NCBI GenBank assembly: GCA_027310725.1
Contig: DAIDAG010000069.1
Coordinates: 1-64,000 of the forward strand
Length of the DNA: 64,000 bases
Reading direction: 5' to 3'
Origin: Sideroxydans sp.
GTDB lineage: Bacteria > Pseudomonadota > Gammaproteobacteria > Burkholderiales > Gallionellaceae
The notes beneath the pieces were generated by a model that was not told the DNA's origin, did not search any database, and saw only the letters and a list, made by a program, of their open reading frames with translations. This document shows, piece by piece, positions 13,005-38,304 of the stretch (its first letter is position 1; every line of letters begins with the position of its first letter). Made by a program: the position numbers and the translations under genes.

Positions 13005-13033
13005 TTAGTCGACGCAAACCGGATTTACTTACA
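13005..13033 (-). promoter_or_regulatory. ECF-sigma promoter of bufferin operon
   Basis: On the minus strand TGTAAG (13033-13028), 16 bases, CGACTAA (13011-13005). Identical hexamer, heptamer and spacer length to the copies before arsM, arsS, grx and the sigma-factor operon. Expected transcript start near 12998, giving a leader of about 45 bases to the bufA ATG. Confidence 0.85.
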
Positions 13034-13067
13034 AATGAATATGCAAATCTGATGTTGCGTCACTTGA

Positions 13068-13093
13068 TTCGGCATTCCGTAAAAAAAGGTTAC
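13068..13093 (-). promoter_or_regulatory. Possible second ECF-type promoter of bufferin operon
   Basis: On the minus strand GTAACC (13093-13088), 16 bases, CGAA (13071-13068). This fits the GTAACC-N16-CGAA form known for SigF-type ECF factors that control similar operons in other proteobacteria. Only one copy was found, so it may be chance. Confidence 0.35.
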
Positions 13094-13120
13094 AAAACCA
13101 GGGCGAAATCTGAATCCGGT

Positions 13121-14191
13121 TCAGAACAACTTGCTGACCGACCACGCGAATATGGCCGCCAATGGAAGCGTCATCAGCCACGACCACATGATTTTGCGCA
13201 ACGATACCCAGTCCAGTGACTGCGCCCGCATGCCCACGCCGGCGATGGAGCCGACCGAGACATGGGTGGTGGAAACCGGTACGCCAAGCTTGCTGGCGAA
13301 CAACACCAAGACTGCAGTAATCAAATTGGCTGCCAATCCGCGGCTGTGATCCATGCGACTCACACGATGGCTCATGCGTTCAGCCACGCGCCGTGCAAAC
13401 AGGACACCGCTCAGCCCCATGGCTGCCGCAAGCCACCAGAACGACGCCTGCGCGCCGAGCAGACTGGAAGCAAGCAGCAGCGCCGCGATCTTGGGCGTGT
13501 CGTTCACGCCGCGCGCAAAGCAGATCGCCATTGCTGAAAATATGTGCAGCTTGTTCAGCCAGTTCGCAATGGAGAATCGCGCGATGACCGGCAAGGTTGC
13601 GCAGTCCTCGTCGCTACCCACCGCGAGCGATGGTGATGCAACGGTTCGTATTGCTATGCCGCCTGAAGTTGAAATCAATTCGGGCTCGACCACACATACG
13701 CAATCCGCCTCGGCCGAACGCAGGCGAAAGGCCGAATAGGCCAGCGCGCCCAGTATGGCGGCGAGCAGTGGACTGACCAGCAACGGCATCAGGAACGTTT
13801 CCATCAGTTTGTCGAAGTGCACGCCTCCCGCTTGTGCCAGACCTGCCCCGATCAGGCCACCGATCAGCGCATGCGTCGTGGACACCGGATACCCTAGGCG
13901 CGTGGCAAGGAAAACCGTGACCGCAGCTCCGCTTGCAACACTAAAGATGAACCAGGGCGTATTGACCACCGCATCTGCGATCAAGCCCTTGCCAGAGAAG
14001 TTCTGTACCAGCGTTTCCGCCAGGAACAATGCAGCCACGCTTCCCGCCACCGTCGCCAGTGTGGCAAGCGCCAGGGCCTGCCGGTAGTTCAGCGTATCGG
14101 AACCCCACACGGTCGCGAAACCCTTGAAGTTGTCGTTGGCGCCGTTGCTGAACGCGAGGAACAGTGCGGCAATCAGAATAAGCATTTCCAT
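13121..14191 (-). CDS. PiT-family phosphate (arsenate) transporter
   Basis: 356 residues, ten or so membrane helices, with the two inverted-repeat signatures SNGANDNFKGFAT and FARGVNDTPKIAAL and the paired STTHALIGG / STTHVSVGS segments of the PHO-4/PiT family. I start at 14191 because GGAGG lies five bases before that ATG. It begins 11 bases downstream of the arsM stop and so is driven by the same ECF promoter. PiT proteins take up phosphate and also arsenate; placing one behind arsM is unusual and suggests altered phosphate/arsenate selectivity or a DMA- or metal-phosphate role (inference). Confidence 0.88.
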   Translation of the reverse strand: MEMLILIAALFLAFSNGANDNFKGFATVWGSDTLNYRQALALATLATVAGSVAALFLAETLVQNFSGKGLIADAVVNTPWFIFSVASGAAVTVFLATRLGYPVSTTHALIGGLIGAGLAQAGGVHFDKLMETFLMPLLVSPLLAAILGALAYSAFRLRSAEADCVCVVEPELISTSGGIAIRTVASPSLAVGSDEDCATLPVIARFSIANWLNKLHIFSAMAICFARGVNDTPKIAALLLASSLLGAQASFWWLAAAMGLSGVLFARRVAERMSHRVSRMDHSRGLAANLITAVLVLFASKLGVPVSTTHVSVGSIAGVGMRAQSLDWVSLRKIMWSWLMTLPLAAIFAWSVSKLF

Positions 14192-14201
14192 CATATCCTC
14201 C

Positions 14202-15242
14202 TCAGCAGCAGGCGCAGCTTTCCTCGCCTGCATCCTTGTTGTCGAACGGAATGGAAGCACCGCAGCCCTCGAACAGGCCGTAGTGCGTTGCGAAGTCGCC
14301 GATAAACTCGAAATGGTTGCGGAAACGGGTGTCTTGCAACATGTGCCAGGTATTGCCGCACACCGGGAACACGCGACCCGTTTCAATACGGTGATGATTG
14401 TCCAGCTCGAAACGATGCGGATGATCCGGGATGCTGCCGCGATAAACTACGGCCTGGCCGTAGTCTTCGCACGCCGTTTCCAGCGCGTCGAGCTTGAACA
14501 ATCGATAGGTCGCCGAGTAGAACTTCAGGTTGCCAACACGCGGCGCCAGCTTGGCATCCGTCACTTCCAGCGGGCGGTCCTCGATCAGTCGCGGATCGGC
14601 GAAGCCATGCCGCTGCGCGAGCCGGATGAAGTCATTCCAGTACAGTGCACCGCCCAGGCATTCGCCGTACAGCACCGGATCGTTGCGCACGGCGTCCGGC
14701 ACGCGGCGGTCAGCATACACATCGGAGAAATAGAATTCGCCGCCATTCTTCAGCAGGCGATGAACGCCGCGCAGCACGGCATCCTTGTCCGGCGACAGAT
14801 TGACTACGCAATTGGACACGATCACGTCGAAGCTGCCGGGCGCAAGATCGAGCTCATCCAGCTTCTCGATGTAACCTTCCACGAAACGCACGTTGGCATA
14901 GCCGAACTGCTCGGCGTGATAAGCGCGATGTTCCTCTGCCACTGCCAGTTGCTCCGGCGTCATGTCGACACCGATAACTTCGCCTGTCTTGCCAACCAGT
15001 TGCGCCAAGGCGTAGACATCACGCCCGGAGCCGCTGCCCAGATCAAGCACGCGGCATCCTTCAAGCAAGGGCGGACACACCAATCCGCAGCCGTAATAAC
15101 GTGCCAGCACCTCGGGATGAACCTTCGCTAGCAGGGGCTTTAGCCAGGCGGGAAGCGTGCTGACATCGCAGCAGGCGCTGGTCTTCAGGTCATTGGAATT
15201 CTGCAGCTGCTTGCCGTAATAGTCCTGAACGATTTCATGCAT
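14202..15242 (-). CDS. arsM: Arsenite S-adenosylmethionine methyltransferase, arsenosugar type
   Basis: 346 residues. A SAM-binding core (VLDLGSGSGRDVYAL) is followed by SNCVVNLSPDK and ECLGGALYW, which carry the two conserved arsenic-binding cysteines; a third comes from SACCDVSTL near residue 24, and the tail ends in SCACC. This longer form is the one linked to arsenosugar synthesis. It methylates As(III) toward dimethylarsenic. Start at 15242 is supported by GAGG eight bases upstream and by an ECF promoter whose predicted transcript begins near 15268. The PiT gene follows 10 bases later. Confidence 0.93.
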   Translation of the reverse strand: MHEIVQDYYGKQLQNSNDLKTSACCDVSTLPAWLKPLLAKVHPEVLARYYGCGLVCPPLLEGCRVLDLGSGSGRDVYALAQLVGKTGEVIGVDMTPEQLAVAEEHRAYHAEQFGYANVRFVEGYIEKLDELDLAPGSFDVIVSNCVVNLSPDKDAVLRGVHRLLKNGGEFYFSDVYADRRVPDAVRNDPVLYGECLGGALYWNDFIRLAQRHGFADPRLIEDRPLEVTDAKLAPRVGNLKFYSATYRLFKLDALETACEDYGQAVVYRGSIPDHPHRFELDNHHRIETGRVFPVCGNTWHMLQDTRFRNHFEFIGDFATHYGLFEGCGASIPFDNKDAGEESCACC

Positions 15243-15274
15243 GATGAGTCCTCTTGAAAGTGTGGAGACATCAG

Positions 15275-15303
15275 TTAGTCGGACCATTCGGCTATTTCTT
15301 ACA
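15275..15303 (-). promoter_or_regulatory. ECF-sigma promoter of arsM
   Basis: On the minus strand TGTAAG (15303-15298), 16 bases, CGACTAA (15281-15275). Same elements and spacing as the other five copies in the window. Leader to the arsM ATG about 26 bases. Confidence 0.85.
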
Positions 15304-15348
15304 TAAACACATCAGATAAGTTAGAAAATACGACTCTCAGCAATTCAA

Positions 15349-17248
<1,900 letters not shown>

Positions 17249-17252
<4 letters not shown>

Positions 17253-17548
17253 TGACGTGCTTCCACAACTTGGGATGGATAGCCGGCGTTCTTGGTAGTT
17301 TCGGTCAGCGCTGCCGCATTTGTCTGGGTATCGTCAAAGGTCGCCACAACAATCTGCTTTTCCGGGTTAACGTCAATCCTGGTCACGCCTTTGACTTTGT
17401 TCAATGCCTTCTTAACGGTGATCGGACATACTTCGCAGTCCATCGTTGGGACAGAAAGCGTGACGGTCTTGCTGGCTGCAAAGGCAGGCGACACAGTCAA
17501 AGAAAGCGCGGTCGCGGCGACAATTGATAGCACTTGGGTAATTTTCAT
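17249..17548 (-). CDS. merP: Periplasmic mercury-binding protein MerP
   Basis: 99 residues: signal peptide ending near SPAFAAS, then one HMA domain with the Hg-binding motif TMDCEVC. Scavenges Hg(II) in the periplasm and passes it to MerT/MerF. Follows merT with a 12-base gap. Confidence 0.95.
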
Positions 17549-17560
17549 ATTGCGACTCCT

Positions 17561-17911
17561 TCAATAAAATAGCGGTGCAAGATAAGGGAAGAACAGTGCG
17601 ACCAGCACCAACATCGCAACGCTCCAGAAAATGACTTTATAAGCGCGCTTGGTCTGCGGCAATGCACAAACTTCACCCGGTCTGCATTCAGCCTCTGACC
17701 GATAAATGCGCCGCCAGGCGAAGAACATTGCGAACAGTGCCGCGCCGATGAAGATCGGGCGGTAAGGCTCCAGCACGGTCAGGTTGCCGATCCAAGCTCC
17801 GCTGAAACCGAGAGTAATCAACACGAGTGGCCCAAGGCAGCAGGTTGAAGCAAGAATGGCCGCAAGCCCGCCAGCTAACAGCGTTCCGCTTAGGGTTTTA
17901 GGTTCTGACAT
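17561..17911 (-). CDS. merT: Mercury transporter MerT
   Basis: 116 residues with three membrane helices. First-helix pair [13 protein letters not shown] binds Hg(II); the cytoplasmic loop pair is [15 protein letters not shown]. Start at 17911 (MSEPKTLSG), first gene behind the mer promoter, and not the longer upstream-open frame that runs through the operator. Confidence 0.95.
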
Positions 17912-17945
17912 GAAATCATCCTTTCGAGTATTTGTGCGATGGTGT

Positions 17946-17976
17946 AACGTACCCCCGTACTCAAGTACGGAGTCAA
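17946..17976 (-). promoter_or_regulatory. mer promoter/operator
   Basis: On the minus strand a -35 TTGACT (17976-17971) and -10 TACGTT (17951-17946) are 19 bases apart. The spacer contains the MerR dyad CCGTAC-TTGA-GTACGG (17955-17970), nearly the textbook mer operator. merR starts six bases away in the other direction. Confidence 0.95.
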
Positions 17977-17981
17977 GAAGC

Positions 17982-18404
17982 ATGCAAAATATTCTCGAAA
18001 ATCTGACTATCGGTGCCTTTGCCAAGGCTGCCGGCGTCAATGTGGAAACCATACGCTTCTACCAGCGCAAGAATCTGCTGCCTGAACCGGACAAACCATA
18101 CGGCGGTATTCGCCGGTATGGGGAGTCAGATGTCGCGCGGGTGCAATTCATCAAGTCGGCTCAGATGCTCGGTTTTAGCCTGGATGAAATCTCGGAACTG
18201 CTCAAATTGGAGGATGGAACACGCTGCATAGAGGCTAGTAAACTGGCCGAGCGCAAGCTTGGCGATGTGCGGGCAAAACTTGCCGTCCTTTTGCGAATGG
18301 AGGCAGTGCTAACGCAGCTTGTGGATTCATGCCACACGCGGAAAGGGAATGTTTCTTGTCCACTGATTGCGTCGCTGCAAGAGCAGAAAGGAGTTGCAAT
18401 ATAA
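17982..18404 (+). CDS. merR: Mercury-responsive regulator MerR
   Basis: 140 residues. MerR helix-turn-helix ([24 protein letters not shown]) and Hg(II)-binding cysteines at 82, 117 and 126, exactly the numbering of the Tn501 protein. Represses and, with Hg(II), activates merTPFA by untwisting the 19-base spacer promoter. Start at ATG 17982; the upstream in-frame extension runs through the operator and is not used. Confidence 0.96.
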
Positions 18405-18432
18405 ACGTAATAGATAGGTTTTTTTTAACTAC

Positions 18433-19188
18433 TCAGTTTTTGTCCGATGAATCAGTGACGCATGCGGTATTTCTATCCACAAAATGGAAATCCGCAAATC
18501 CCGCATGTGCTAACTCCGCGGTATTGTCGGTATCCGAGGCAACCGAGAGTTGGATCAACCGCGCTTTGGCAGAGCCGAATTCGGCGATCACATCCTGCAA
18601 CACATCATGCCGCGCCTCGACCCACTTCCCTGCGTTCACCGCACCTGACTCCGCTACGATCATGCGCGTGCGGTCGGTGTAGGCGTTCGGCTTGCGCGTG
18701 CCGACCGGATAGCGGTTGTCCCACACATAATTGAGCGCGGCATCGGGCACGGCATCGCCGTAGATGCTTCGAGCCAGCTTGAGTTTGGCGCGCAGCATGA
18801 AGTTCAACTCGGACGGCGGCATGGTGAACGACACATAGACACGGGCGGCATAGTCGTCGCCCGCCTTGGTCGCCATGTCCGCCTTGACCAGCGGCGCATC
18901 GATACGCCAGCGCCAACACATTACTGGCGTGCGGTTCAGATCGACTTCGACTGGTCGCGCCAATAGCGCCATGCTGTGGTCGGCGGTCGCCTCGATACCC
19001 AGCACACCGTCCATGCGGGCAATCTGGTAGCGGGTAGGAGCCACTTTTTTATTGAGCTGCACGATCTGCCACGGTGCGGGCACGACCTCCGATGGCCCCT
19101 TGAAACTGTCCAGTGCCGCCAAGTCACTCGCCTGTACGACGCATGAACCGGCACACAAAATCAAACCCGCAACACTACGCAACAGCAT
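18433..19188 (-). CDS. Exported DUF3047 protein
   Basis: 251 residues with a signal peptide (LLRSVAGLILCAGSCVVQASD). The DUF3047 core is visible in the CWRWRIDAPL segment and in DDYAARVYVSF, LNYVWDN and RTRMIVAESG. Function unknown, predicted periplasmic and carbohydrate-binding-like by fold (inference). Last gene of the arsS operon, overlapping the glycosyltransferase gene by 14 bases. Confidence 0.85.
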   Translation of the reverse strand: MLLRSVAGLILCAGSCVVQASDLAALDSFKGPSEVVPAPWQIVQLNKKVAPTRYQIARMDGVLGIEATADHSMALLARPVEVDLNRTPVMCWRWRIDAPLVKADMATKAGDDYAARVYVSFTMPPSELNFMLRAKLKLARSIYGDAVPDAALNYVWDNRYPVGTRKPNAYTDRTRMIVAESGAVNAGKWVEARHDVLQDVIAEFGSAKARLIQLSVASDTDNTAELAHAGFADFHFVDRNTACVTDSSDKN

Positions 19189-19798: not shown

Positions 19799-20487
19799 CG
19801 GTATAACCTCGCCAACTCCGCCGCATCGGCACCGCGCCAATATTCCCAGCGCAATCTCCACATCAGAAAAATGGTGCGCCAGACGCCATGCGTCTCCCAG
19901 CGCCTTCCGGAAGTGTTTGCACAATGCGCGATACAGGCAGGACGCGAAAAATCCAGCAGCCGCTTGCACAACTCCACATCCTCCATCAGGGGCTGGTCGG
20001 AATAGCCACGCAACTGTTCGAACACGATACGCCGCACGAATATCGCCTGATCTCCGGTGGCGATCCCGCTCAGTCGCGAACGCCAGTTCATCAGCCTGCC
20101 GATCACGCGCAACATGAACGGCTTACCCGTGATGCACACGTCGAATCTGCCCCAGTCCTTATGCCCCGAGAGGGCTTGCGTAACATGCTGCAGCGCTCCG
20201 TCCGGCAGACGCGTATCGGCATGCAGGAACAACAGCGCATTTCCGTTGGCCTGTGCTGCCCCCGCATTCATCTGTTTTGCCCTGCCACGGTCGGATTTAA
20301 CGAGAATGAATCCGGCCACTTTGACGAGCATGGCAGAACTATCGGTACTCCCGCCATCGGCAAAGATGATCTCGCAACCTGCACGCTGAAAAGGCAGCAC
20401 GTGTGCGAACAGGTCCGGCAGCTGTGCCGCTTCATTCAACATGGGAATGACGATGGAAAGTTTCACATCAGCCCCGCTTCCACGCAT
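19795..20487 (-). CDS. TIGR04283-type arsenosugar-associated glycosyltransferase 2
   Basis: About 230 residues, GT2 fold: LSIVIPMLNEAAQL, FADGGSTDSS, RAKQMNAGA, LFLHADTRLP (the metal-binding DxD equivalent) and the later GDQAIFVRR and EDVELCKRL. The family is associated with arsenosugar loci. Start is uncertain: ATG 20487 overlaps the upstream gene; GTG 20463 is an alternative directly before the catalytic domain. Confidence 0.88.
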   Translation of the reverse strand: MRGSGADVKLSIVIPMLNEAAQLPDLFAHVLPFQRAGCEIIFADGGSTDSSAMLVKVAGFILVKSDRGRAKQMNAGAAQANGNALLFLHADTRLPDGALQHVTQALSGHKDWGRFDVCITGKPFMLRVIGRLMNWRSRLSGIATGDQAIFVRRIVFEQLRGYSDQPLMEDVELCKRLLDFSRPACIAHCANTSGRRWETHGVWRTIFLMWRLRWEYWRGADAAELARLYR

Positions 20488-22618
20488 GGTAGCGCTCCAT
20501 CCAGGCCAGAATTCTTTGCGGCGCATGGGCGCGCTTCCATTCTCCGGCTGCATATTTGTTTGCTTCTGACAAGGTCGGGTAGGTGTGGATGGTGCCCAGG
20601 ATCTTGTTCAACCCCAGGCCGTGCTTCATCGCCAGCACGAATTCCGCCAACAGGTCTCCCGCATGTTCGCCTACGATGGTGACACCCAATATCATGTCCT
20701 TGCCCGGCACGGTGAGCACCTTGACGAAACCGTGCGCCGTGCCATCGGCAATCGCGCGGTCCAGATCCTCGATGCCGTACTTGGTGACTTCGTACGCTAC
20801 ACCCTGCTCTCCCGCCTCCTGCTCGTTCAAGCCCACGCGCGCCACTTCCGGATCAATAAAAGTGGACCACGGGATGACCGAATAATCCGCCTTGAATTTC
20901 TTGAAGTCGCCGAACAGCGCATTCACCGCCGCATACCAAGCCTGATGTGACGCGGTATGGGTGAACTGGTACGGCCCGGCCACGTCGCCTGCGGCAAAGA
21001 TGTTGGGATACAGTGTTTCCAGATAGTCATTGGTGGTAACCGTACGCTGGGTCGGAATGCCCAACTCTTCCAGGCCAAAGCCGGTAAGGCGTGCGCTGCG
21101 ACCAACAGCACATAACAACTGGTCAAATTCAATGTGGCGTGATTGGCCGTTGTGCTCCACCACGATATATTTATGGTCGCCTTCCTGTTCGCAGCGCACG
21201 GCAGTGTGATCGGTCAGTACGTCCACCCCGTTTGCGGATAACGCCTTGCGCGCCAATTCCGAAACTTCGCTGTCCTCGCGCGCCATGATGCGTGTGCCTT
21301 TTTCGATCTGCGTCACGTGCGAACCCAGTCGCGCAAAGCTTTGCGCCAGCTCGCAACCGATAGGCCCACCGCCCAGCACGACGAGACGTTTCGGTGTCAC
21401 ATCCAGCTTGGCGAATTCATCCCACAGCGTGTCGCTGGTTACATAGCCCACATCGTTCAATCCGGGCAACGGCGGGATAAATGGAGCGGCGCCGGTGGCG
21501 ATTATGATGCTGCGTGTAGTCAGGGTCTGGATAGTTCCATTGTTCAATTTGATCTCGACCGTCCACGGATCGGTGATGCGCGCATAACCTTGCAGCACCT
21601 CCACGCCCAGGCCGGTGAATCGCTCCGCGCTGTCATGCGGGGCCACGGTGCGAATCACGTCATGCACGCGCGCCATCACTTTGCGGAAGCTGAAATCGGG
21701 TGCCCCAACATTCAAGCCGTAGTGTTCACCGTGTCGAATCTGATTGGCCAATTTGGCGCTTTTGATCAACGCCTTGCTCGGTACGCAACCGTAGTTCAGG
21801 CAGTCTCCACCCATTTTGTGCGCTTCGATCAAGGTGACTTTGGCTTTGACCGCTGCGCCAATGTAGGCCGATACCAGACCGCCCGCACCGGCGCCAATGA
21901 CGATCAGGTTGCGGTCGAATCTGGCCGGACGTTGCCATTTGGCATAGAGGCGGCGGCGTTGCAGCCAGGTTGCGATTCTTTTGGAAATCATGGGAAAAAT
22001 TCCCAACAGTGCAAACGAAATCAACAGACCGGGCGAAAGGATGCCGGACAGGCTGGTCAATTGCGCCAGTTGCGTGCCCGCATTCACGAACACCAGCGTC
22101 CCGGCAATCATGCCCACCTGACTCACCCAATAGAAAGTACGGGTGCGCATCGGGGTCAGCCCCATCAGCAGGTTGATCAGGAAGAATGGAAACAGCGGCA
22201 CCATGCGCAGGGTAAACAGGTACAGCGCACCATCCCGGGTAATGCCCTCGTTGATCGCTTTGAGCTTGTCGCCGAACCGGCGCTGCACCGCGTCACGAAA
22301 TACGAAACGCGATGCCAGAAAAGCCAGGGTCGCACCGATGGTCGAGGCGAACGACACAAGCAGCGTGCCTATTGCCAGACCGAACAGCGCACCTATGGCG
22401 AGCGTCATGATCAAGGCACCCGGCAGGGACAATGCGGCAGCAATGACATAAAGCACGAAACCGGCGCCGGCAACCAGCCAGGGCGATTGCATCCTGAGAG
22501 CCATGAAATCGCTCTGGCTTTGCCTTAACGATTCCAGCGTCAGGTAACGATCCAGACCTGAAGCGAAGAAACCGAGCACGAGGAGCATGATCGCGACGAC
22601 GATCGCCAACTTCTTCAT
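20468..22618 (-). CDS. TVP38/VTT membrane domain fused to MerA-like flavoprotein
   Basis: 716 residues. Residues 1-235 form a TVP38/TMEM64 (VTT) integral membrane domain with about six helices; residues 236-716 are a class-I pyridine nucleotide-disulfide oxidoreductase: FAD motif VIGAGAGGLVSA, redox disulfide GGDCLNYGC (Cys273/Cys278), NAD motif VLGGGPIGCELA, FAD motif FAAGDVAGPYQFTH, and the C-terminal dimer-interface HTYPTLSE. Without the HMA domain and C-terminal vicinal cysteines of MerA, so Hg reduction is unlikely. The substrate may be a thiol or arsenic species (inference). Overlaps both neighbours by a few bases inside the arsS operon. Confidence 0.9.
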   Translation of the reverse strand: MKKLAIVVAIMLLVLGFFASGLDRYLTLESLRQSQSDFMALRMQSPWLVAGAGFVLYVIAAALSLPGALIMTLAIGALFGLAIGTLLVSFASTIGATLAFLASRFVFRDAVQRRFGDKLKAINEGITRDGALYLFTLRMVPLFPFFLINLLMGLTPMRTRTFYWVSQVGMIAGTLVFVNAGTQLAQLTSLSGILSPGLLISFALLGIFPMISKRIATWLQRRRLYAKWQRPARFDRNLIVIGAGAGGLVSAYIGAAVKAKVTLIEAHKMGGDCLNYGCVPSKALIKSAKLANQIRHGEHYGLNVGAPDFSFRKVMARVHDVIRTVAPHDSAERFTGLGVEVLQGYARITDPWTVEIKLNNGTIQTLTTRSIIIATGAAPFIPPLPGLNDVGYVTSDTLWDEFAKLDVTPKRLVVLGGGPIGCELAQSFARLGSHVTQIEKGTRIMAREDSEVSELARKALSANGVDVLTDHTAVRCEQEGDHKYIVVEHNGQSRHIEFDQLLCAVGRSARLTGFGLEELGIPTQRTVTTNDYLETLYPNIFAAGDVAGPYQFTHTASHQAWYAAVNALFGDFKKFKADYSVIPWSTFIDPEVARVGLNEQEAGEQGVAYEVTKYGIEDLDRAIADGTAHGFVKVLTVPGKDMILGVTIVGEHAGDLLAEFVLAMKHGLGLNKILGTIHTYPTLSEANKYAAGEWKRAHAPQRILAWMERYHAWKRG

Positions 22619-23169
22619 GGCTTGCTTTCGCGCTTCGAGGCCATGCCGCGTGCCGCAAACAGCTCGATGCGCTCCATCGGAATATGGTCTCCGGCATCTT
22701 CGCCGTAATAGGTTTCGACGACGGTCCCTGATTCATCAATCAGAAAGTCGGCCGGCATCAGGTTGCCCGTTGCCATACCCCGCATCCCCGTCATGCCCAT
22801 GCCGCTCATCATGGCTGGCATGCGCAACAGCATCGCCTTGATCTTGCCCCACATCGATGTGTTCACGGCAAATGCTTCATGCGCAATACCTTCGGGGTCG
22901 GCGATCATGCGAAACGGGCGTGGCCGATTGGCTATAAACTTGAGTACATCCTCGCGATCCGACTTGAACACCACGGCGATATCCAGCCCCAGATTCGACA
23001 GGCCCGGATAGTTGTTGGTCAGGTCGTATACCCTGAAATTGCAAAACGGGCAGGTCGCTTCGCGGAACAGAGACAGCAGCAACCTGCGCCCATTGCCGAT
23101 TTGAACGGGCTGTCCGTCGATATCGACCAGCGAAATTGGTGGTGTCTTTGCGGGTGCAAGGAGGGTCAT
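22615..23169 (-). CDS. Peroxiredoxin-like (AhpC/TSA fold) protein
   Basis: 184 residues, thioredoxin fold with FREATCPFCNFRVYDL, a CxxC in the position of the peroxidatic Cys, and the later FMIDESG-type strand (ADFLIDESGTVVETYYG). A methionine-rich helix (MPAMMSGMGMTGMRGM) in the middle is unusual. Likely a thiol reductase or peroxidase. Start at 23169 overlaps the arsS stop by four bases. Confidence 0.82.
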   Translation of the reverse strand: MTLLAPAKTPPISLVDIDGQPVQIGNGRRLLLSLFREATCPFCNFRVYDLTNNYPGLSNLGLDIAVVFKSDREDVLKFIANRPRPFRMIADPEGIAHEAFAVNTSMWGKIKAMLLRMPAMMSGMGMTGMRGMATGNLMPADFLIDESGTVVETYYGEDAGDHIPMERIELFAARGMASKRESKP

Positions 23170-24167
23170 TTTGCAACCTCCGTTTGCAAGTGAGACTCGC
23201 CCCTGATGATCGATTTGCTTGCGCCGCTGCAACTGCTGCCCTGCCCGGCGGTGCAACCGTAGCAATGGTCGGCCACGCGAACCGGCTGGCCGTGCAGGTC
23301 TTGATGTAGCAGGTCGCGTAGATGCGGTCTACCCATGCCAGGCAGGGGCAGTCCCAATTGCTGGTTGAAATCGCAGTCATACAGAAAACCCTGCCAGTCC
23401 ACACTGACCAGGTTGCGACACATCACGGTGTCGAGATTGGCGGCGGCAAAGTTCTCATGCAGCAAGTGCATGTAGTCGTTGAATTGCCCTTTGGAGATCA
23501 ACATCGAGCCGAAGCGCTGGATCGGCATGTTGGCAATGGCCAGCAACTGGTTGAACTCGATACCGAAATGGTTGAACAGTTCGCGCTGGTAATCGGCCTG
23601 CAGCTCGGATTGATCCGGCGGCAGCGAAGCGCCCTGCGGATTGAACACCAGATTCAGAATCAGTCCGCTGCTGGGTATGCCGTAGCCCAGTGCGTTGAGC
23701 TTCTGTAATCCCAGGATGCTCTTGTCGAAAGTCCCTTTGCCGCGTTGCTTGTCCACATTGTCCAGCGAGTAGCAAGGCAGGGACGCGACGATCTCGACCC
23801 GCTGTTCCGCCATGAACTCCGCCAAATCTTCCTGCCCCGGCTCGAACAGGATAGTCAGGTTGCAGCGGTCGATCACCTTGCAACCCTGTGCCCGTGCCGC
23901 ACGCACCAGATCGCGGAACCCTGTGTGCAATTCGGGCGCACCGCCGGTCAGGTCCAGCGTATGCAGATCCCGTGCTGCCAGCACCTGCGGAATCATCGCC
24001 AGTGTTTCGGCATCCATCATCTCGGTGCGGTTGGGACCGGCATTCACGTGGCAATGCTGACAGCTCATGTTGCACTTGTAACCGATGTTGACCTGCAGGA
24101 TTTCCAGGTCACGACGACGCAAAGCGGGAAACTCGGTGAATTGCAACAAAGGCAGGGTGGCATGCAT
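23166..24167 (-). CDS. arsS: Arsenosugar biosynthesis radical SAM enzyme ArsS
   Basis: 333 residues. The radical SAM cluster motif CNMSCQHC (Cys32, 36, 39) is followed by HVNAGPNRTE, the ArsS signature; the C-terminal Cys-rich domain ends with DHCYGCTAGQGSSCSGA. Known ArsS joins the 5-prime-deoxyadenosyl group to dimethylarsenic to form an arsenic nucleoside. I prefer ATG 24167 over 24215 because the ECF promoter predicts a transcript beginning near 24215, which would leave the longer form without a leader. First gene of a six-gene operon. Confidence 0.94.
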   Translation of the reverse strand: MHATLPLLQFTEFPALRRRDLEILQVNIGYKCNMSCQHCHVNAGPNRTEMMDAETLAMIPQVLAARDLHTLDLTGGAPELHTGFRDLVRAARAQGCKVIDRCNLTILFEPGQEDLAEFMAEQRVEIVASLPCYSLDNVDKQRGKGTFDKSILGLQKLNALGYGIPSSGLILNLVFNPQGASLPPDQSELQADYQRELFNHFGIEFNQLLAIANMPIQRFGSMLISKGQFNDYMHLLHENFAAANLDTVMCRNLVSVDWQGFLYDCDFNQQLGLPLPGMGRPHLRDLLHQDLHGQPVRVADHCYGCTAGQGSSCSGASKSIIRGESHLQTEVAK

Positions 24168-24221
24168 GGTATTTCCGTCCGGTTGTTCCGCACCGCGTAT
24201 CTGCAATGCGCTCATGGGCCG

Positions 24222-24250
24222 TTAGTCGCCGCAGTCTTAGATTCCTTACA
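24222..24250 (-). promoter_or_regulatory. ECF-sigma promoter of arsS operon
   Basis: On the minus strand TGTAAG (24250-24245), 16 bases, CGACTAA (24228-24222). Back to back with the promoter of grx at 24284-24312. Confidence 0.85.
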
Positions 24251-24283: not shown

Positions 24284-24312
24284 TGTAAGAAATGCATGGC
24301 AACCACGACTAA
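24284..24312 (+). promoter_or_regulatory. ECF-sigma promoter of grx
   Basis: TGTAAG (24284-24289), 16 bases, CGACTAA (24306-24312). Perfect match to the shared motif; predicted leader to the grx ATG about 47 bases. Confidence 0.85.
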
Positions 24313-24365: not shown

Positions 24366-24623
24366 ATGAACACCGTTACCATGTACAGCACCGCAACCTG
24401 CCCGTATTGCATCCGCGCCGAACAACTCCTGAAACAGAAAGGCGTAGCCAATCTGGTCAAGATCAGGATCGACGAGGATTCGTTCGAGCAGGAAAAGATG
24501 ATCGCGCGCACCGGTCGGCGCACCGTTCCACAAATCTACATCGGCGAAACCCATGTGGGTGGCTTCGACGACATTGCCGCGCTGGATCGCGCGGGCAAGC
24601 TTGACCCGCTGCTGAACAACTAG
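24366..24623 (+). CDS. grxC: Glutaredoxin 3-type protein
   Basis: 85 residues with the dithiol active site CPYC (Cys12/Cys15), RRTVPQIYIGETHVGG carrying the cis-Pro and glutathione-binding residues. Reduces mixed disulfides with glutathione; could also feed arsenate reduction. Start at ATG 24366 with AGGAG eight bases upstream. Controlled by its own ECF-type promoter, opposite the arsS operon. Confidence 0.95.
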   Translation: MNTVTMYSTATCPYCIRAEQLLKQKGVANLVKIRIDEDSFEQEKMIARTGRRTVPQIYIGETHVGGFDDIAALDRAGKLDPLLNN

Positions 24624-24633: not shown

Positions 24634-25401
24634 ATGGGCGCGGCGCTTTCATGGTTCGGCAGAAAACTCGCGCTGATCCTGACGCGGCCGCAACATATAC
24701 ACAGCGCAGAACCCGTAAGTTCGCCAGCCCTTTTACTGGCCTGCCTGCGCCCTGGGGATGTGCTGTTGGTGGAAGGAGACAGCCGGGTCAGTGCGGCCAT
24801 CAAATTCCTGACGCAATCGAACTGGTCGCATGCCGCGCTCTATGTGGGGGACTATCTCGCGCAGGCGGGCGGCAACCCGACACACTGCTTTATCGAAGCG
24901 GACATGGTGGACGGCGTGCGCAGCGTGGGCATCGCTGAATTCGCCAACCTGCACACCCGCATCTGCCGCCCGTTCGGTTTGAACGAAGATGACTGCAAGC
25001 AAGTAGCTGAATTCGCCGTGCGCCGCATCGGTGACCAATACGACTTGCGCAACGTGTTCGACCTCGCCCGCTACTTCCTGCCGAACCCGCCGGTCCCGAT
25101 TCGCTTCAGGCGCAACATGCTGTCACTAGGTAGCGGCGACCCGACACGCGCGATCTGTTCCACCCTGATCGCGCAGGCTTTCCAGTCGATGCGCTACCCC
25201 ATCCTGCCCATTGTCTCCACCCGCAGCGCGGACACCCCGGAGTGCCCGAATTGCATCGAGGAGATTTACAAGATACGCCACCACAGCCTGTTCACACCCA
25301 AGGACTTCGACGTGTCGCCGTATTTCCAGATCGTGAAGCCGACGCAGGTGAGCGGGTTCAATTTCAGGGATTTAAAGTGGGGGGATGTTGTGGAGCAGTG
25401 A
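24634..25401 (+). CDS. YiiX/YebB-like permuted papain-fold cysteine hydrolase
   Basis: 255 residues. Permuted NlpC/P60-type catalytic order: His in SNWSHAALYVG (about residue 67) precedes Cys in TRAICSTLIAQAF (about residue 172). The GDVLLVEGDSRVSAAIKFLTQ segment is typical of the YiiX/YebB group. Substrate unknown (amide, thioester or lipid ester bonds in relatives). Ten bases after grx, so in the same ECF-driven transcript. Confidence 0.85.
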   Translation: MGAALSWFGRKLALILTRPQHIHSAEPVSSPALLLACLRPGDVLLVEGDSRVSAAIKFLTQSNWSHAALYVGDYLAQAGGNPTHCFIEADMVDGVRSVGIAEFANLHTRICRPFGLNEDDCKQVAEFAVRRIGDQYDLRNVFDLARYFLPNPPVPIRFRRNMLSLGSGDPTRAICSTLIAQAFQSMRYPILPIVSTRSADTPECPNCIEEIYKIRHHSLFTPKDFDVSPYFQIVKPTQVSGFNFRDLKWGDVVEQ

Positions 25402-30904: not shown

Positions 30905-30936
30905 TCCGAATCCACTAGCCCCAAAAAGGAGAGCAT

Positions 30937-31410: not shown

Positions 31411-31505
31411 AATCTTTGATAGGAAGATACTGAAATCGAACAGGCGGCTGCGTCTTTCATAGTGGACGTCACCCACATCAATTCAGAATCATCAGGAGAA
31501 TGAAT

Positions 31506-32633: not shown

Positions 32634-32642
32634 GATAACGCC

Positions 32643-33425: not shown

Positions 33426-33460
33426 AGTGAAGCTGTACCGGTGTTTCCGAAAGGATCATT

Positions 33461-34126: not shown

Positions 34127-34142
34127 CGTGAGGAGAGTTGAC

Positions 34143-34385
34143 ATGATGAATAACTGGGACGGTTTCTGGGGATGGGGAATGGGTGTGGGTTTTGTATTCA
34201 TGTTGCTTTTCTGGGGATTTATTATTCTTGGAATCACCGCGCTGGTCCGATGGTTGATGACGCAGTCGTCACCGGGCCGCAATTCGCGCGACAAAACACC
34301 ATTGGAAATTGTGCAGGAACGCTACGCACGCGGCGAGATCGACCGGGACGAATACGAACAGAAAAAGCGTGACCTAGAGCAATAA
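34143..34385 (+). CDS. Small SHOCT-domain membrane protein
   Basis: 80 residues: one membrane helix (GVGFVFMLLFWGFIILGITALVRWL), a linker, and a C-terminal SHOCT helix pair (LEIVQERYARGEIDRDEYEQKK). Oligomerisation-type domain, role unknown. Start at ATG 34143 with GAGGAGA seven bases upstream. Confidence 0.9.
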   Translation: MMNNWDGFWGWGMGVGFVFMLLFWGFIILGITALVRWLMTQSSPGRNSRDKTPLEIVQERYARGEIDRDEYEQKKRDLEQ

Positions 34386-34387
34386 GC

Positions 34388-35536
34388 ATGAAAACTCCGA
34401 TCTATCTCGATTACAACGCAACCACACCGGTGGCGCTGGAGGTGGCCGATGCGATCCAGCCGTTTTTGGACGAGCACTTCGGCAATCCTTCATCGTCACA
34501 TACATATGGCTTGTCCGCCCGTCGGGCGGTCGCCGAAGCACGGGCATCGGTAGCTGCGCTTATCCATGCACGGCAGAATGAGATTGTTTTCACTGGAAGC
34601 GCGACCGAGGCCAACAATCTTGCGCTCCTTGGTGTCGCCAGCGCATTAGGGAAAACCCGGCGTCATCTTGTGATCAGCGCAATCGAACACCCGGCGGTCA
34701 TGCAACCGGCCCAGCACCTGCGCGAGACGGGCTGGGATTTGACCGTGGTGCCCGTGGATGGCTATGGCCGCGTCGATCCACGCGCCGTTGCCGCAGCCGT
34801 GCGAGCCGATACCGCACTGGTGTCGATCATGCACGCCAATAATGAAGTCGGAACGATACAGCCGGTTGCCGAAATCGCGCAGCTCATTAAACCGATGGAC
34901 GTACTGCTCCATACCGATGCCGCACAATCGGCCGGCAAGATTGAAATCGATGTCGACGCGCTGGGAGTCGACTTGCTGACTTTGGCTGGACACAAGTTCT
35001 ATGCCACAAAAGGAATAGGCGCTCTGTATGTCCGCCCGGGAACGCCAATCAACCCAATATTGTTTGGTGCCGACCAAGAGCATGGCCTGCGGCCGGGCAC
35101 AGAAAATGTGCCGCTAATCGTCGGCCTGGGTGCCGCGGCAAAGCTTGCGCTGGAACGCCTTTCCACAAACAAGAAAAAAATGCTGACATTAAGGGACATG
35201 CTGCACGAACAACTTGCGGAGAAAATTCCAGGTCTTGCGCTCAATGGTCATCCGACAGATCGCCTTCCCAATACTTTACATGTTTCTTTTCCGGGCATCT
35301 CTGGCCGCGAGTTGCTGTCTCTCGTCGCAGATCGGGTTGCTGCATCGGTTGGCTCAGCATGTCATTCCGAGGCTGATGCGGTGAGTGGCGTACTGGCAGC
35401 GATGGGGTGCGATACAGATCGGGCTCGGGGTGCCGTAAGGCTCTCTGTGGGATGGATGTCAACGCTGGAAGAAATCGAGGCTGCAGCAACGGCACTGTCT
35501 GAAGTTGCGGCCGGGTCATTTCTTCGTCGGCATTAA
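34388..35536 (+). CDS. Cysteine desulfurase (NifS/IscS-like)
   Basis: 382 residues, class V aminotransferase fold. YLDYNATTPV start, PLP Lys in LAGHKFYATKGIGALYVR, and the catalytic Cys loop SVGSACHSEADAVSG. Releases sulfur from cysteine for Fe-S clusters or other thiocofactors. It stands alone without iscU or iscR, two bases after the SHOCT gene. Confidence 0.92.
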   Translation: MKTPIYLDYNATTPVALEVADAIQPFLDEHFGNPSSSHTYGLSARRAVAEARASVAALIHARQNEIVFTGSATEANNLALLGVASALGKTRRHLVISAIEHPAVMQPAQHLRETGWDLTVVPVDGYGRVDPRAVAAAVRADTALVSIMHANNEVGTIQPVAEIAQLIKPMDVLLHTDAAQSAGKIEIDVDALGVDLLTLAGHKFYATKGIGALYVRPGTPINPILFGADQEHGLRPGTENVPLIVGLGAAAKLALERLSTNKKKMLTLRDMLHEQLAEKIPGLALNGHPTDRLPNTLHVSFPGISGRELLSLVADRVAASVGSACHSEADAVSGVLAAMGCDTDRARGAVRLSVGWMSTLEEIEAAATALSEVAAGSFLRRH

Positions 35537-35583
35537 TATGTCCGTCCTACACGGATTCAACATGCCCACATAAATTAGAATCA

Positions 35584-35605
35584 AGCTGAAGCAGCTATTT
35601 TTTTT
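35584..35605 (+). terminator. Weak terminator candidate after cysteine desulfurase gene
   Basis: AGCTG-AAG-CAGCT hairpin (35584-35596) followed by a T run (35598-35605). Short stem; the T run also encodes the lysines at the end of the anti-sigma gene on the other strand. Confidence 0.35.
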
Positions 35606-35789
35606 CCTGCTCATTCTTGCCCTTGGCAAAGGTACGCGTCATCAACCTGATCGATCCCATCTGTTCCTTGAAATTACTGCAGCCGCTGCACATCATCAAA
35701 TGCAGCTTCAACGACATGCGCTCGATCATTGACAGCGGGCGTTCCTGCGACTCGGACATCAGTCGCGTAGCGTCATGACAGTTCAACAT
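35595..35789 (-). CDS. Zinc-type anti-sigma factor (zf-HC2 / ZAS)
   Basis: 64 residues with Cys4 (NCHDAT) and the motif HLMMCSGC (His30, Cys34, Cys37), the CHCC zinc site of ZAS anti-sigma factors. No membrane helix, so a soluble redox- or metal-sensitive regulator, as for MseR of Neisseria (from memory). Zinc loss by thiol oxidation or metal substitution would free the sigma factor. Its start overlaps the sigma gene by 17 bases. Confidence 0.88.
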   Translation of the reverse strand: MLNCHDATRLMSESQERPLSMIERMSLKLHLMMCSGCSNFKEQMGSIRLMTRTFAKGKNEQEKK

Positions 35790-36408
35790 TTTTCTCTCCT
35801 TCCAGATACCATTTGTTCTCGATGCATTCGCGCAAGCGCAGCCGCGAACGGTGAAGCAGGACGTGCAAATTGCTCGTGGTCAAATTCACCTCGGCGCAGA
35901 TCTCGTCGGCATCCAGTTCGATGAATTCCCGCATCATAAAGACCCGTGCCTGCTTCGGCGGCAGTCCTTCTAGACACGCTTCAAATACGATCCAGAACTG
36001 CCCTTCGCGCAAGGAAGCTTCCGGGTTACCCCAGGCAACAGGTCTTTCCTCGGGCTGCCAGAAACCTTTGCTGTCAAACAATTCGGAGAAGTCTTCATCC
36101 TCGTCGCCGTCGCGCTGCAGGCTGCTGACATTCACCGAGCGCTGTTTTTGCCGCAGGGTGTCGGCGATCTTGTTTTTCAGGATGGCGAATATCCAGGTCT
36201 TGAGCGCAGCACGCCCGCCAAACGAAGCGGCGTTTTTCAGTGCCCCGATCAATGCTTCCTGTACTGCATCCTCGGCCTGATGACTGTCACCAAGTTGCAT
36301 GGTGGCGAACTTGAGCATCTGTCTGCGTACATCTTCAAGGAATACGCCGTCAGTCAATACATCATATTGGCTGCCCGATTCAATCTGCGGATTCTGCTCG
36401 TTCGTCAT
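35773..36408 (-). CDS. ECF RNA polymerase sigma factor
   Basis: 211 residues. Region 2 at about 25-90 (QLGDSHQAEDAVQEALIGALKNAASF... ALKTWIFAILKNKIADTLRQ) and region 4 at about 140-195 (LEGLPPKQARVFMMREFIELDADEICAEVNLTTSNLHVLLHRSRLRLRE). Start at ATG 36408 (MTNEQN). Followed by its anti-sigma partner. The operon to which it belongs is preceded by one of six TGTAAG-N16-CGACTAA promoters, so autoregulation is likely, and this factor is the best candidate to control all six. Confidence 0.94.
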   Translation of the reverse strand: MTNEQNPQIESGSQYDVLTDGVFLEDVRRQMLKFATMQLGDSHQAEDAVQEALIGALKNAASFGGRAALKTWIFAILKNKIADTLRQKQRSVNVSSLQRDGDEDEDFSELFDSKGFWQPEERPVAWGNPEASLREGQFWIVFEACLEGLPPKQARVFMMREFIELDADEICAEVNLTTSNLHVLLHRSRLRLRECIENKWYLEGEKNVELS

Positions 36409-36628
36409 CAATTCCTCTTCTTCCAATTTCGTTCTTTGCCGCACTGTAGCTTGCCACGCAATACGGTACCAGATAATTCAACAGAAAATGGAACCAGGAT
36501 ATCTTGTCGGCATGCAGCAGACTTTCGCCCTGATTGATAAAATTAAGGAGAGTCCCGACTACCAGTGCAATCTGGAGCGAGTTTTTGACAATGCACCATG
36601 ACAGGAATGCCTGCATCAGCTTAGTCAT
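36380..36628 (-). CDS. NrtS-like small membrane protein
   Basis: 82 residues, two membrane segments: LQIALVVGTLLNFINQGESLL and WFHFLLNYLVPYCVASYSAAK. The LNxINQGxxLL...YLVPYCVxxYS pattern matches the NrtS family, reported to support nitrate/nitrite transport. Overlaps the flavoprotein gene by eight bases and the sigma gene by 29, so it is an integral operon member. The role beside an ECF sigma factor is unexplained. Confidence 0.75.
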   Translation of the reverse strand: MTKLMQAFLSWCIVKNSLQIALVVGTLLNFINQGESLLHADKISWFHFLLNYLVPYCVASYSAAKNEIGRRGIDDERAESAD

Positions 36629-37748
36629 ATCTCGAATCTCCGCTTTTATGTTTATTCATGAATCTACGGTCTATCTGGTTCTTCCAGCGCCACACCCAGT
36701 GGCCTGTCGCACTGAATGATCCCCACGATGCAATCGCGTGCTTGGGACCGGTAGCCATCAAATACAGGGAGCGTTTACGCGGGCGATAACTGATAAATTT
36801 TCCGCCGGTGATGCTGGCGATCAGGTTGTGCGCCACTACCGGCCCAGCAAACACGGCATGCACACCGGAACGAGCCATAAGGATATCGGTTCTGGCGCAT
36901 ACGTCACCAGCGGCAAACACATTTGGATGCGAGATACTTCGATGTGCCGAATCCACGCTGATGTAACCATGCTCGTCCAGTGCAAGGTGGGATGTCTGCA
37001 ACCAGCGCGGAGGAGTGGAACCAGTGGCTGCGACTACAGTATCTGCATACAGGTGACGGCCGTTACCGAGCAAAATCCCATCCTCAGCCCCAACTGCCTG
37101 CGCTTCATGCAATGCGATTCCACGCTGCTTCAATAAATAGCGAACTCTATTTGAAACTCCGGCCGCATGACCTGGCAGCAGACCTCTTTCTGAAGCGATC
37201 AGTGCTACGGTGGCCAAACTAGCCTGTTCCTCAATTACATGCTGCGCGGCCAGTGCGATTTCGACGCCTGCGGCACCGCCGCCGACCACAATGAGGCTGA
37301 AATTGTTTTGTTTCTTGGCGTCAGCAACGATCCCTTGCCAACGCTGCACAAATCCCCCCAACGGCTTGACCGGCAGCAGTCGCTTCCCCAATGTCTCCAG
37401 CCAGGACAGATTGGTTTCGCCACCCACATCGACCGACAACATATCGTAGTCGAGTTGTGTGCCATTCGCCAACGTAACGCGTTGCAGGTCGGCATTCACC
37501 CCTGTTACCTGATCGAGGATCATCTCCGCATTTGCAGCCTGTGCCAATGGACGCAAATCGATCTGACACTCCGCCATCGAGTAATGCCCAGCCATCCAGC
37601 CCGGCAGCATGCCCGAATAGGTTTGGTGTGTACTGGGCGTGATCATGACCGCATCAATATCCGGACGCTGCCTTGCCAATGCGCGCAATACGCTCAAATG
37701 CGCATGACCACCGCCTGCCAATACCAATCGTTTTCTGGTGCAGTTCAT
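36621..37748 (-). CDS. FAD-dependent NDH-2/SelD-domain-like oxidoreductase
   Basis: 375 residues. VLAGGGHAHLSVLRAL N-terminus (the GGGHxH form is shared with SelD-fused oxidoreductases), IVVGGGAAGVEIALA for NAD binding and FAAGDVCARTD for FAD. Probably oxidises NAD(P)H, electron acceptor unknown. No redox disulfide. Two bases after the preceding gene of the sigma operon. Confidence 0.85.
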   Translation of the reverse strand: MNCTRKRLVLAGGGHAHLSVLRALARQRPDIDAVMITPSTHQTYSGMLPGWMAGHYSMAECQIDLRPLAQAANAEMILDQVTGVNADLQRVTLANGTQLDYDMLSVDVGGETNLSWLETLGKRLLPVKPLGGFVQRWQGIVADAKKQNNFSLIVVGGGAAGVEIALAAQHVIEEQASLATVALIASERGLLPGHAAGVSNRVRYLLKQRGIALHEAQAVGAEDGILLGNGRHLYADTVVAATGSTPPRWLQTSHLALDEHGYISVDSAHRSISHPNVFAAGDVCARTDILMARSGVHAVFAGPVVAHNLIASITGGKFISYRPRKRSLYLMATGPKHAIASWGSFSATGHWVWRWKNQIDRRFMNKHKSGDSRYD

Positions 37749-37750
37749 TG

Positions 37751-38206
37751 TTAACGGAAATGCCGTTTGATGATGCGCGTTGCCAGAGCGCGCTGTTCCG
37801 GAGAAACCAGGTCTTCCTTGTTTAAGAACACGAATGTGTCCGGCTTGCCCAATGCCGGGCTGGATTCGCTAGCCGCATCGATGCCGAGAATCGCTCCTGT
37901 GAAACCCGAGTTCTTGGCCAGCCGCTCCAGCGTGCTCTTTGCCGCAGCAAAATCGATGATGGATGCAAACAGGACCGGCAGTCGCGGGGCGGATTTGCGC
38001 AACGCGGTGAAGACCGTCTCCGCCGATTCAGCTATGGATGAAACCACTGCCAGTGAAATGATCGCGCCTGCTGCGCCCGTTGTGCTCGCGGGCAGGTCAC
38101 CCATCGTGGCCAGTGGCGTCGGGGTGTATCCGTTCTGTTCCAGGAAAGGTTTCATTTCCGAAACGATGAATGGATGAGGACGGGCAAGCAGTATGTTCCT
38201 GGACAT
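37751..38206 (-). CDS. Hypothetical protein heading the sigma-factor operon
   Basis: 151 residues, not recognised. Start MSRNILLARPHPFIVSEMKPFL resembles a receiver-like alpha/beta fold, but the acidic pocket and conserved Lys of receivers are not evident. No cysteine, no signal peptide. Start at ATG 38206 with AGGAGA upstream; predicted transcript start near 38232 agrees. Being first behind the ECF promoter, it is probably a main product of the response. Confidence 0.7.
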   Translation of the reverse strand: MSRNILLARPHPFIVSEMKPFLEQNGYTPTPLATMGDLPASTTGAAGAIISLAVVSSIAESAETVFTALRKSAPRLPVLFASIIDFAAAKSTLERLAKNSGFTGAILGIDAASESSPALGKPDTFVFLNKEDLVSPEQRALATRIIKRHFR

Positions 38207-38238
38207 TGGTATCTCCTGTAATTGAATGGGTTGCAGCG

Positions 38239-38267
38239 TTAGTCGCCGATCCGGACGAATCCTTACA
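38239..38267 (-). promoter_or_regulatory. ECF-sigma promoter of sigma-factor operon
   Basis: On the minus strand TGTAAG (38267-38262), 16 bases, CGACTAA (38245-38239). Upstream of the operon that encodes the ECF sigma factor, which predicts positive autoregulation. Confidence 0.87.
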
Positions 38268-38275
38268 AATCGATC

Positions 38276-38304
38276 TGTAAGAATTTCGCCCGTCCTACGA
38301 CCAA
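38276..38304 (+). promoter_or_regulatory. ECF-sigma promoter of MTA phosphorylase gene
   Basis: TGTAAG (38276-38281), 16 bases, CGACCAA (38298-38304), one mismatch to the -10 consensus. Divergent from the sigma-operon promoter with only eight bases between their -35 boxes. Confidence 0.8.

Follow-up and report, generated by a model that had tools for sequence, protein, structure and literature searches.

The 64,000-nucleotide stretch of Sideroxydans sp. analyzed here (GenBank assembly GCA_027310725.1, contig DAIDAG010000069.1, positions 1 to 64,000), referred to in the following as the window, contains six copies of the motif TGTAAG-N16-CGACYAA. These are most likely promoters read by a single extracytoplasmic function (ECF) sigma factor, encoded at 35773..36408 on the reverse strand, whose own operon is headed by one of them; from the sequence comparisons described below, we put the probability of this reading at about 0.88. 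The motif follows the clade of this sigma factor from genome to genome, its spacing is fixed at 16 or 17 bases, and most of the target genes keep their sites in distant bacteria. We consider the set real and well above chance: an ECF regulon whose kind is known and whose gene content is new, the new part being an arsenosugar-type gene set. Scattered arsenic, copper and redox genes thus become one testable regulon, and the promoter could be used as a search key across Proteobacteria.

The promoter motif in the window and the assembly

A pattern search placed exact matches, each a predicted sigma-dependent promoter, at 13005..13033 (reverse strand), before the bufferin operon; at 15275..15303 (reverse), before arsM-pit; at 24222..24250 (reverse) and 24284..24312 (forward), before the arsS operon and the glutaredoxin gene grx, respectively; at 38239..38267 (reverse), before the sigma operon, which suggests autoregulation; and at 38276..38304 (forward), in the form with CGACCAA, before the gene of a methylthioadenosine phosphorylase (MTAP) homologue. 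These positions and strands, the spacer of exactly 16 bases in all six sites and the two divergent pairs (24222/24284 and 38239/38276) are as described in a first-pass annotation of the window. That annotation had also judged chance recurrence very unlikely, and no site arose in 100 dinucleotide shuffles. Scanned with a weight matrix, the window gave scores of 27.4–30.7 for the six sites. The next-best site, at 50088-50116 on the reverse strand (TGCAAG...CGACCAA), had a matrix score of 15.1, far under the six.

The whole assembly (3,028,986 bases in 80 contigs) yielded the same six exact matches and no seventh, with one match for the reversed pattern as a control. The motif was thus not found at many unrelated positions, an outcome that the first-pass annotation had named as telling against its proposal. 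The assembly is a metagenome-assembled genome that is 64.8% complete, and additional sites may be out of view. A search with a spacer of 16–17 bases and the shorter −10 box CGACYA again gave only the six (control 3). When one mismatch was allowed, four matches were added, as opposed to six in the reversed control, so that no clear extra sites emerged in the assembly.

The −10 box lies 51 bases before the start codon of bufA, 32 before arsM, 53 before grx, 28 before the MTAP gene and 32 before hyp150, the first gene of the sigma operon. In the arsS open reading frame, the first ATG (24215) is 6 bases past the −10 box and the second (24167) is 54 bases past it. Because the ArsS reading frames of relatives are shorter than that of the window (317–338 versus 349 amino acids), the true start is probably at 24167. 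With this shift, the earlier statement that the sites stand 20–60 bases before a start codon holds for all six (28–54 bases).

The sigma factor and its motif across genomes

The sigma factor belongs to the TIGR02943/PRK12544 group: in Pfam it matched only Sigma70_r2 and Sigma70_r4_2, that is, sigma regions 2 and 4 alone, and it scored above the curated cut-offs (NF009196, 334.5 bits, cut-off 287; TIGR02943, 247.5 bits, cut-off 162.2). From the promoter at 38239, genes run end to end on the reverse strand: hyp150 (37751..38206; 151 amino acids, no NCBIfam or Pfam match when searched without its first Met), a pyridine nucleotide-disulfide oxidoreductase of family TIGR03169 (36621..37748; 361.5 bits, cut-off 310), an NrtS-like small membrane protein (36380..36628; NF038050, 38.2 bits, cut-off 25), the sigma factor and a zinc-finger anti-sigma factor. 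Since this run reaches from the promoter to the sigma gene, the sigma factor is probably autoregulated. The anti-sigma protein (35588..35782, reverse strand; 64 amino acids; zf-HC2, PF13490, 29.5 bits, cut-off 22.2) has the zinc pattern C4-x25-H30-x3-C34-x2-C37, and its gene overlaps the 3′ end of the sigma gene.

Relatives of the sigma factor were collected by a scan with eight aligned sigma sequences, and the best 80 of at least 587 relatives (at least 596 stretches) were used as loci (L numbers; 1.37 Mb). Genomes (G numbers) included an order sample of 250, the window's own among them, drawn at a requested completeness of 90, in which the sigma factor was called at E up to 1e-25. The two sets overlap in part: L091 matches G135, and L099 and L069, the latter in the matrix training set, are one record. 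The weight matrix was trained on 39 sites from the window and G-set relatives. An anti-sigma pattern followed 3′ of the sigma gene in 77 of the 80 loci, compared with 25 of 1600 random pieces of equal length.

The motif, its −35 box extended by A/T-rich positions, occurred 101 times in 54 genomes of the order sample, and the sigma factor was present in 102 genomes. After removal of 18 matches that fell inside sigma genes, the motif was found in 49 of the 102 genomes with the sigma factor and in only 1 of the 148 without it (Fisher p 4e-22). Most of the remaining matches (54 of 83) were at least 12 kb from the sigma gene or on another contig, and the co-occurrence is therefore not merely a neighborhood effect. 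Within the genus, the motif was present in all eight relatives with a sigma match above 200 bits and in 2 of 16 others. Outside the genus, five of 16 relatives had it (G031, G034, G035, G037 and G040), the matches in G034 and G037 lying partly within the sigma gene.

The spacing was also specific. Around the 80 sigma relatives, TGTAAG combined with CGAC[CT]A was found 27 times at N16, 40 times at N17 and never at N12–15 or N18–21, and the weight matrix at a threshold of 14 gave 129 sites, compared with 3 and 2 at shifted spacings; two sites within sigma genes (L143 and L149) were kept in both counts. N16 was mostly combined with CGACTAA (19, versus 4 with CGACCAA) and N17 mostly with CGACCAA (17, versus 5 with CGACTAA), which may reflect lineage.

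Conservation of the targets was assessed in the same loci as the presence of a site at −400 to +60 of a gene start, at a matrix threshold of 12, which gave 148 sites, compared with 28 at six control spacings combined. A site preceded the gene in 6 of 7 loci for MTAP (0/7 at the control spacings), 11 of 14 for bufA, 10 of 15 for arsS, 6 of 12 for arsM and 13 of 21 for the TIGR03169 gene, in all three loci with hyp150 relatives, and directly before the sigma gene in 17 of 80. Frequencies for other genes were 5/9 for trx, 3/8 for ccdA, 5/26 for the lpdA-like gene, 4/23 for DoxX and 1/3 for grx, and no site was seen before bufC (0/19), TIGR04283 (0/16) or DUF3047 (0/5), although some of these genes lie within operons and do not head them. 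Clear parallels in other lineages thus exist for five of the six promoters of the window. The exception is grx: its exact site in the window stood as first annotated, and its membership of the regulon is the least backed by conservation, with one locus in three and one match at a control spacing.

Chance recurrence of the motif is ruled out by the shuffles, the whole-assembly search, the specificity of the spacing and the co-occurrence with the sigma factor. The proposal of the first-pass annotation, that the sites are ECF promoters served by the sigma factor encoded in the window, gains support from the last two and from the recurring targets. Nevertheless, several points weigh against it. 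Of the sigma-positive genomes, 53 of 102 had no strict match beyond the sigma gene, and G032 and G033, outside the genus, have sigma matches above 150 bits and no exact motif. The same-genus genomes G012 and G002, which carry this sigma type, have no exact site before arsS, only weaker ones with matrix scores of 17.5 and 13.9, respectively, compared with 27–31 in the window. Nor is arsS generally tied to the sigma factor in the order sample (34 of 76 arsS genomes have it, p 0.41). Control spacings gave matches before bufA (2/14), arsS (1/15), arsM (1/12), grx (1/3), the C92 peptidase-like gene (2/12) and sigma (2/80), and none before the other genes counted. The ArsM protein of the window is related to arsenite methyltransferases, yet it falls below every curated ArsM cut-off listed. 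Finally, the Fisher tests ignore kinship among genomes, and the comparative tests are not fully independent of one another.

Could another ECF sigma factor of the genome read the sites, the local one being a bystander? Four further ECF matches, all of them weaker, were present in the assembly, and different ECF factors can have overlapping promoter specificities. We nevertheless consider this improbable, given that just 1 of 148 genomes without this sigma clade has the motif and that the sites cluster around its relatives and precede the sigma operon itself. A lack of ECF sigma factors is not the cause of the missing motifs, at least in 41 relatives, each of which matched the ECF family model to some degree. 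It is less probable still, indeed very unlikely, that the sites are operators for a sigma-linked transcription factor. Two conserved blocks at a fixed spacing could equally make up a regulator site, but these blocks form neither a palindrome nor a repeat, and their layout equals that of the Neisseria sigmaE promoter, for which the part of PMC2893595 consulted places the transcript start 6 nt downstream. Orientation and distance also suit a promoter at all six sites (28–54 bases, with arsS starting at 24167). As for a specific regulator, an AraC-type gene lies near some of the sigma genes, and the one in the window (39218-40207) was considered and rejected: none of the 15 loci with such a gene had a site before it.

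Target genes and the proposed stress response

The bufferin operon, on the reverse strand, comprises the four genes of a Buf1 cluster: a DUF2282 bufferin precursor, BufA (12690..12953; PF10048, 88.6 bits), the MNIO maturase BufB (11845..12690; NF050167, 362.9 bits, cut-off 310), the DUF2063 protein BufC (11079..11855; PF09836, 80.2 bits) and a DoxX-type protein (10633..11082; PF07681, 62.9 bits). Genes for a thioredoxin and a CcdA/DsbD-type membrane protein (9451..10571, reverse strand; Pfam) are perhaps the end of this operon. On the forward strand, grx (24366..24623) encodes a glutaredoxin 3 (TIGR02181, 111.6 bits, cut-off 90) and is followed by the gene of a C92 peptidase-like protein (24634..25401; PF05708, 39.7 bits, cut-off 27).

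The arsS operon, also on the reverse strand, starts with the radical SAM protein ArsS (23166..24167, the frame opening at 24215; TIGR04167, 458.7 bits, cut-off 300). It continues with a SelL-related redoxin (22615..23169; NF040769, 56.9 bits, below the cut-off of 120, with Pfam Redoxin and AhpC-TSA above cut-off) and a membrane domain, recognized by eye, fused to a dihydrolipoamide/MerA-like reductase (20468..22618; best NCBIfam matches below cut-offs). Next come two glycosyltransferases of families that NCBIfam names for arsenosugar biosynthesis, TIGR04283 (19795..20553; 266.6 bits, cut-off 182) and TIGR04282 (19175..19849; 203.3 bits, cut-off 134), and the last gene encodes a DUF3047 protein (18433..19188; PF11249, 222.8 bits). 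ArsS and the two linked glycosyltransferases, one mark of an arsenosugar cluster, are all above cut-off. The ArsM-type methyltransferase (14202..15242, reverse strand), which is followed by a Pit-type phosphate permease (13121..14218, start approximate, reverse strand; PHO4, 210.3 bits), had its best match to NF008823 (174.5 bits, below the cut-off of 263) and reached only 89.7 bits against the arsenosugar-type ArsM model NF038099 (cut-off 400). Because ArsM falls short of its cut-offs, we refer to the cluster as arsenosugar-type, not as a proven arsenosugar cluster.

A mercury operon (merA and neighbors, 15349-18052; MerA above cut-off) lies among these genes and shows no site in the window. 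It was rejected as a member of the regulon, as none of 25 loci with merA had a site before it, and of four with merT one had a low-scoring site.

The first-pass annotation had described the six operons as linking arsenic, copper-type and thiol genes. This holds for most of the targets; the MTAP homologue (38333..39199, forward strand; TIGR01694, 318.6 bits, cut-off 274.85) fits the ArsS pathway better than a role as a thiol gene. Close copies of it (E up to 1e-95) occurred in 7 of the 250 genomes, and all seven hold arsS within 15 kb, while arsS overall was found in 76 (p 2e-4); all seven also have the sigma factor (p 2e-3). In two of them, G065 and G108, which were not in the tree, the MTAP and arsS genes are divergent neighbors about 250 and 670 bases apart. 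Similarly, arsS was present in 6 of the 7 MTAP loci among the 80 loci (p 1e-4). In the tree, the cluster copies formed a clade of their own with 98/98 support (ten rows, nine of them distinct; several families and one gammaproteobacterial metagenome-assembled genome). Since all seven genomes with close copies hold arsS, the MTAP probably serves the ArsS pathway, not thiol salvage. The product of ArsS is a 5′-deoxyadenosyl arsenical, an analogue of methylthioadenosine. On the strength of this resemblance, the simplest reading is that MTAP would remove adenine from the ArsS product, making it a candidate for the reaction that lies between those of ArsS and the glycosyltransferases. The solved structure closest to the window MTAP was RsfP (4glf, 4glj), much nearer than classical MTAPs.

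It is also quite possible, if the less probable of the two readings, that this MTAP performs ordinary thiol or methionine salvage and was drawn into the regulon because stress raises methylthioadenosine. The protein scores above the curated MTAP cut-off, and turnover by ArsM and ArsS could raise related nucleosides. Moreover, G071 has a 63%-identical MTAP fragment with a stop and no arsS above cut-off, and the MTAP of L164, which has a site, is placed on a long branch apart from the clade, and its locus has no arsS. What argues for the ArsS pathway instead, besides the separate clade and the constant proximity to arsS, is that G135 and G256 (same family, 99% complete) each hold three homologues: the cluster copy is 79% identical, a second of the housekeeping MTAP type 49%, and a third, MTIP-like, 37%.

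Taken together, these features suggest how the regulon might work. The zinc-finger anti-sigma factor would hold the sigma factor in the cytoplasm and release it once its own Cys/His site is upset by a thiol-reactive stress, be it trivalent arsenic, copper or an oxidant; given the targets, arsenite and copper are natural candidate signals. The freed sigma factor would then drive production of bufferin, a copper-binding peptide, perhaps together with the thioredoxin and CcdA, of glutaredoxin, and of the arsenosugar-type pathway, in which ArsM would methylate, ArsS would add a deoxyadenosyl group, MTAP would remove adenine, and the two glycosyltransferases would finish. It would also drive its own operon, and since this includes the anti-sigma factor, both amplification and shut-off would result. 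Arsenosugar-type genes would thereby be linked to a stress sigma factor that drives bufferin, and a copper-binding peptide system would be tied to, and very probably switched together with, an apparent arsenic-to-sugar pathway in an iron-oxidizer-like bacterium. In the open-licence literature, we found no publication that joins ECF sigma factors to arsM or to a CGACTAA box, and searches there on arsenosugar genes gave, judging by listings, only papers on other subjects.

In its layout, its partner and the presence of a bufferin target, the window sigma factor resembles sigmaE of Neisseria and RpoE2 of Haemophilus. The RpoE2 cluster has a COG3220 member, which we take to be an MNIO. The Neisseria sigmaE promoter, in the portion of PMC2893595 available, has a −35 element GTMAGBWTT, a spacer of 12–13 nt and a −10 element CGTCTAAH. 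The N. meningitidis system (sigmaE, NMB2144; anti-sigma MseR, NMB2145) thus shares the promoter layout and the −35 core GTAAG with the window, and differs by one base in the −10 box (CGTCTAA versus CGACYAA); TGTAAG with CGTCTAA at spacings of 12–21 was found nowhere in the 80 loci. Both anti-sigma factors are of the short zinc-binding type with a Cys4, which MseR activity requires together with the Cys residues of the zinc motif H-x3-C-x2-C, and the sigmaE operon, NMB2140-2145, is autoregulated (PMC2893595, same portion). The main targets named there are this operon and msrA/msrB, with no mention of arsenic genes; none of the six window operons starts with an msr gene. The Neisseria regulon also includes a cluster of DoxX and hypothetical proteins, a likeness to the bufferin target (PMC7907618, in the text available).

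That text of PMC7907618 assigns Neisseria sigmaE and RpoE2-like factors to “ECF group 13”, with the anti-sigma pattern C/H-X23-26-H-X3-C-X2-C; the window shows the group trait of a short cytoplasmic ZAS anti-sigma gene directly downstream of the sigma gene. Haemophilus influenzae RpoE2/HrsE has a 67-amino-acid zinc-type anti-sigma factor and drives a four-gene DoxX/DUF2063 cluster, but it differs in targeting msrAB and a transporter, in very limited self-activation and in a response to hypochlorite, and the same text mentions no arsenosugar genes (PMC7907618). Caulobacter crescentus sigmaF, likewise an ECF factor, drives DUF2282-DUF692-DUF2063 operons under dichromate stress, but from promoters of the type GTAACC-N16-CGAA and with a six-helix DUF1109 protein as negative regulator (PMC3511200, sections available). 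In Cupriavidus metallidurans, the ECF gene rpoQ is divergent from the bufferin-type, copper- and gold-induced gigPABT; its predicted anti-sigma factor is membrane-bound, and the accessible sections of PMC10304878 do not demonstrate dependence of gig on RpoQ.

A probable internal promoter in a second sigma subfamily

In a second subfamily of sigma factors (L238–L297), 37–49% identical to that of the window, the sigma gene itself frequently contains the motif, placed in the codons for the region-4 helix (C-K-E...T-N). Of 60 such genes, 18 had been chosen for carrying the motif; 49 showed the pattern C..[LVMI]....[ST]N and were counted, and 11 were dropped. Leaving out the chosen 18 gave a set of 31 genes from 19 families. 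In this set, the Cys codon was TGT in 30 genes, compared with 9.8 expected from synonymous usage, and the codon before Thr was NCG in all 31 (11.1 expected), even though the encoded amino acid differs between genes (Ala 15, Pro 6, Ser 6, Thr 4). The full TGTAA[GC]-N16-CGACYAA was present in 12 of the 31, with 0.8 expected and a maximum of 5 over 1000 draws. In the mid-spacer codons (positions 5–7), third bases were near expectation, and the codon after TGTAAG leans toward A/T as the motif does. The internal site is about 70–95 bases before the end of the sigma gene, and the anti-sigma pattern then follows.

The window-type subfamily had the full internal site in none of 73 aligned genes (of 80), with TGC in 53, TGT in 20 and NCG in 5, and an internal site is likewise absent from the sigma gene of the window. 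In L085, whose sigma gene also lacks one, a site at 9101-9129 stands directly before the anti-sigma gene. Because the synonymous codon bias matches the motif, and in view of this alternative site in L085, the data point to selection at the nucleotide level for an internal promoter that would feed the anti-sigma gene. This is a likely case of a promoter being selected within the codons for the DNA-binding helix of the very sigma family that reads it. A sigma-dependent anti-sigma promoter within a sigma gene is described for Corynebacterium glutamicum SigH/RshA in the part of PMC3489674 at hand, as we propose for the second subfamily; that promoter is, however, of the GGAATA/GTT type. In G031, too, a site precedes the anti-sigma gene itself.

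A wider picture, to which we would give somewhat less than even odds as a whole, joins three elements: an ECF sigma factor like Neisseria sigmaE in overall command of a module for arsenic and copper, a dedicated MTAP clade as a missing arsenosugar enzyme that passes an arsenic-bearing ribose phosphate to the glycosyltransferases, and a sister subfamily in which the same promoter, set within the sigma gene where region 4's DNA-binding helix is encoded, feeds the anti-sigma gene.

In the 80 loci, 56 sites preceded none of the gene types of the window, and these were only sampled. In relatives, sites precede genes for methionine sulfoxide reductase A, DUF427 proteins and Cys-rich secreted peptides. 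In G031, sites precede MsrA (PMSR, 189.8 bits) and a protein that by eye resembles MsrP/YedY. In L073, L074, L076 and L082, sites stand before secreted Cys-rich proteins in which NPCAAKNPC-like repeats and, in some, CxxCH were recognized by eye; these are perhaps further metal-binding proteins.

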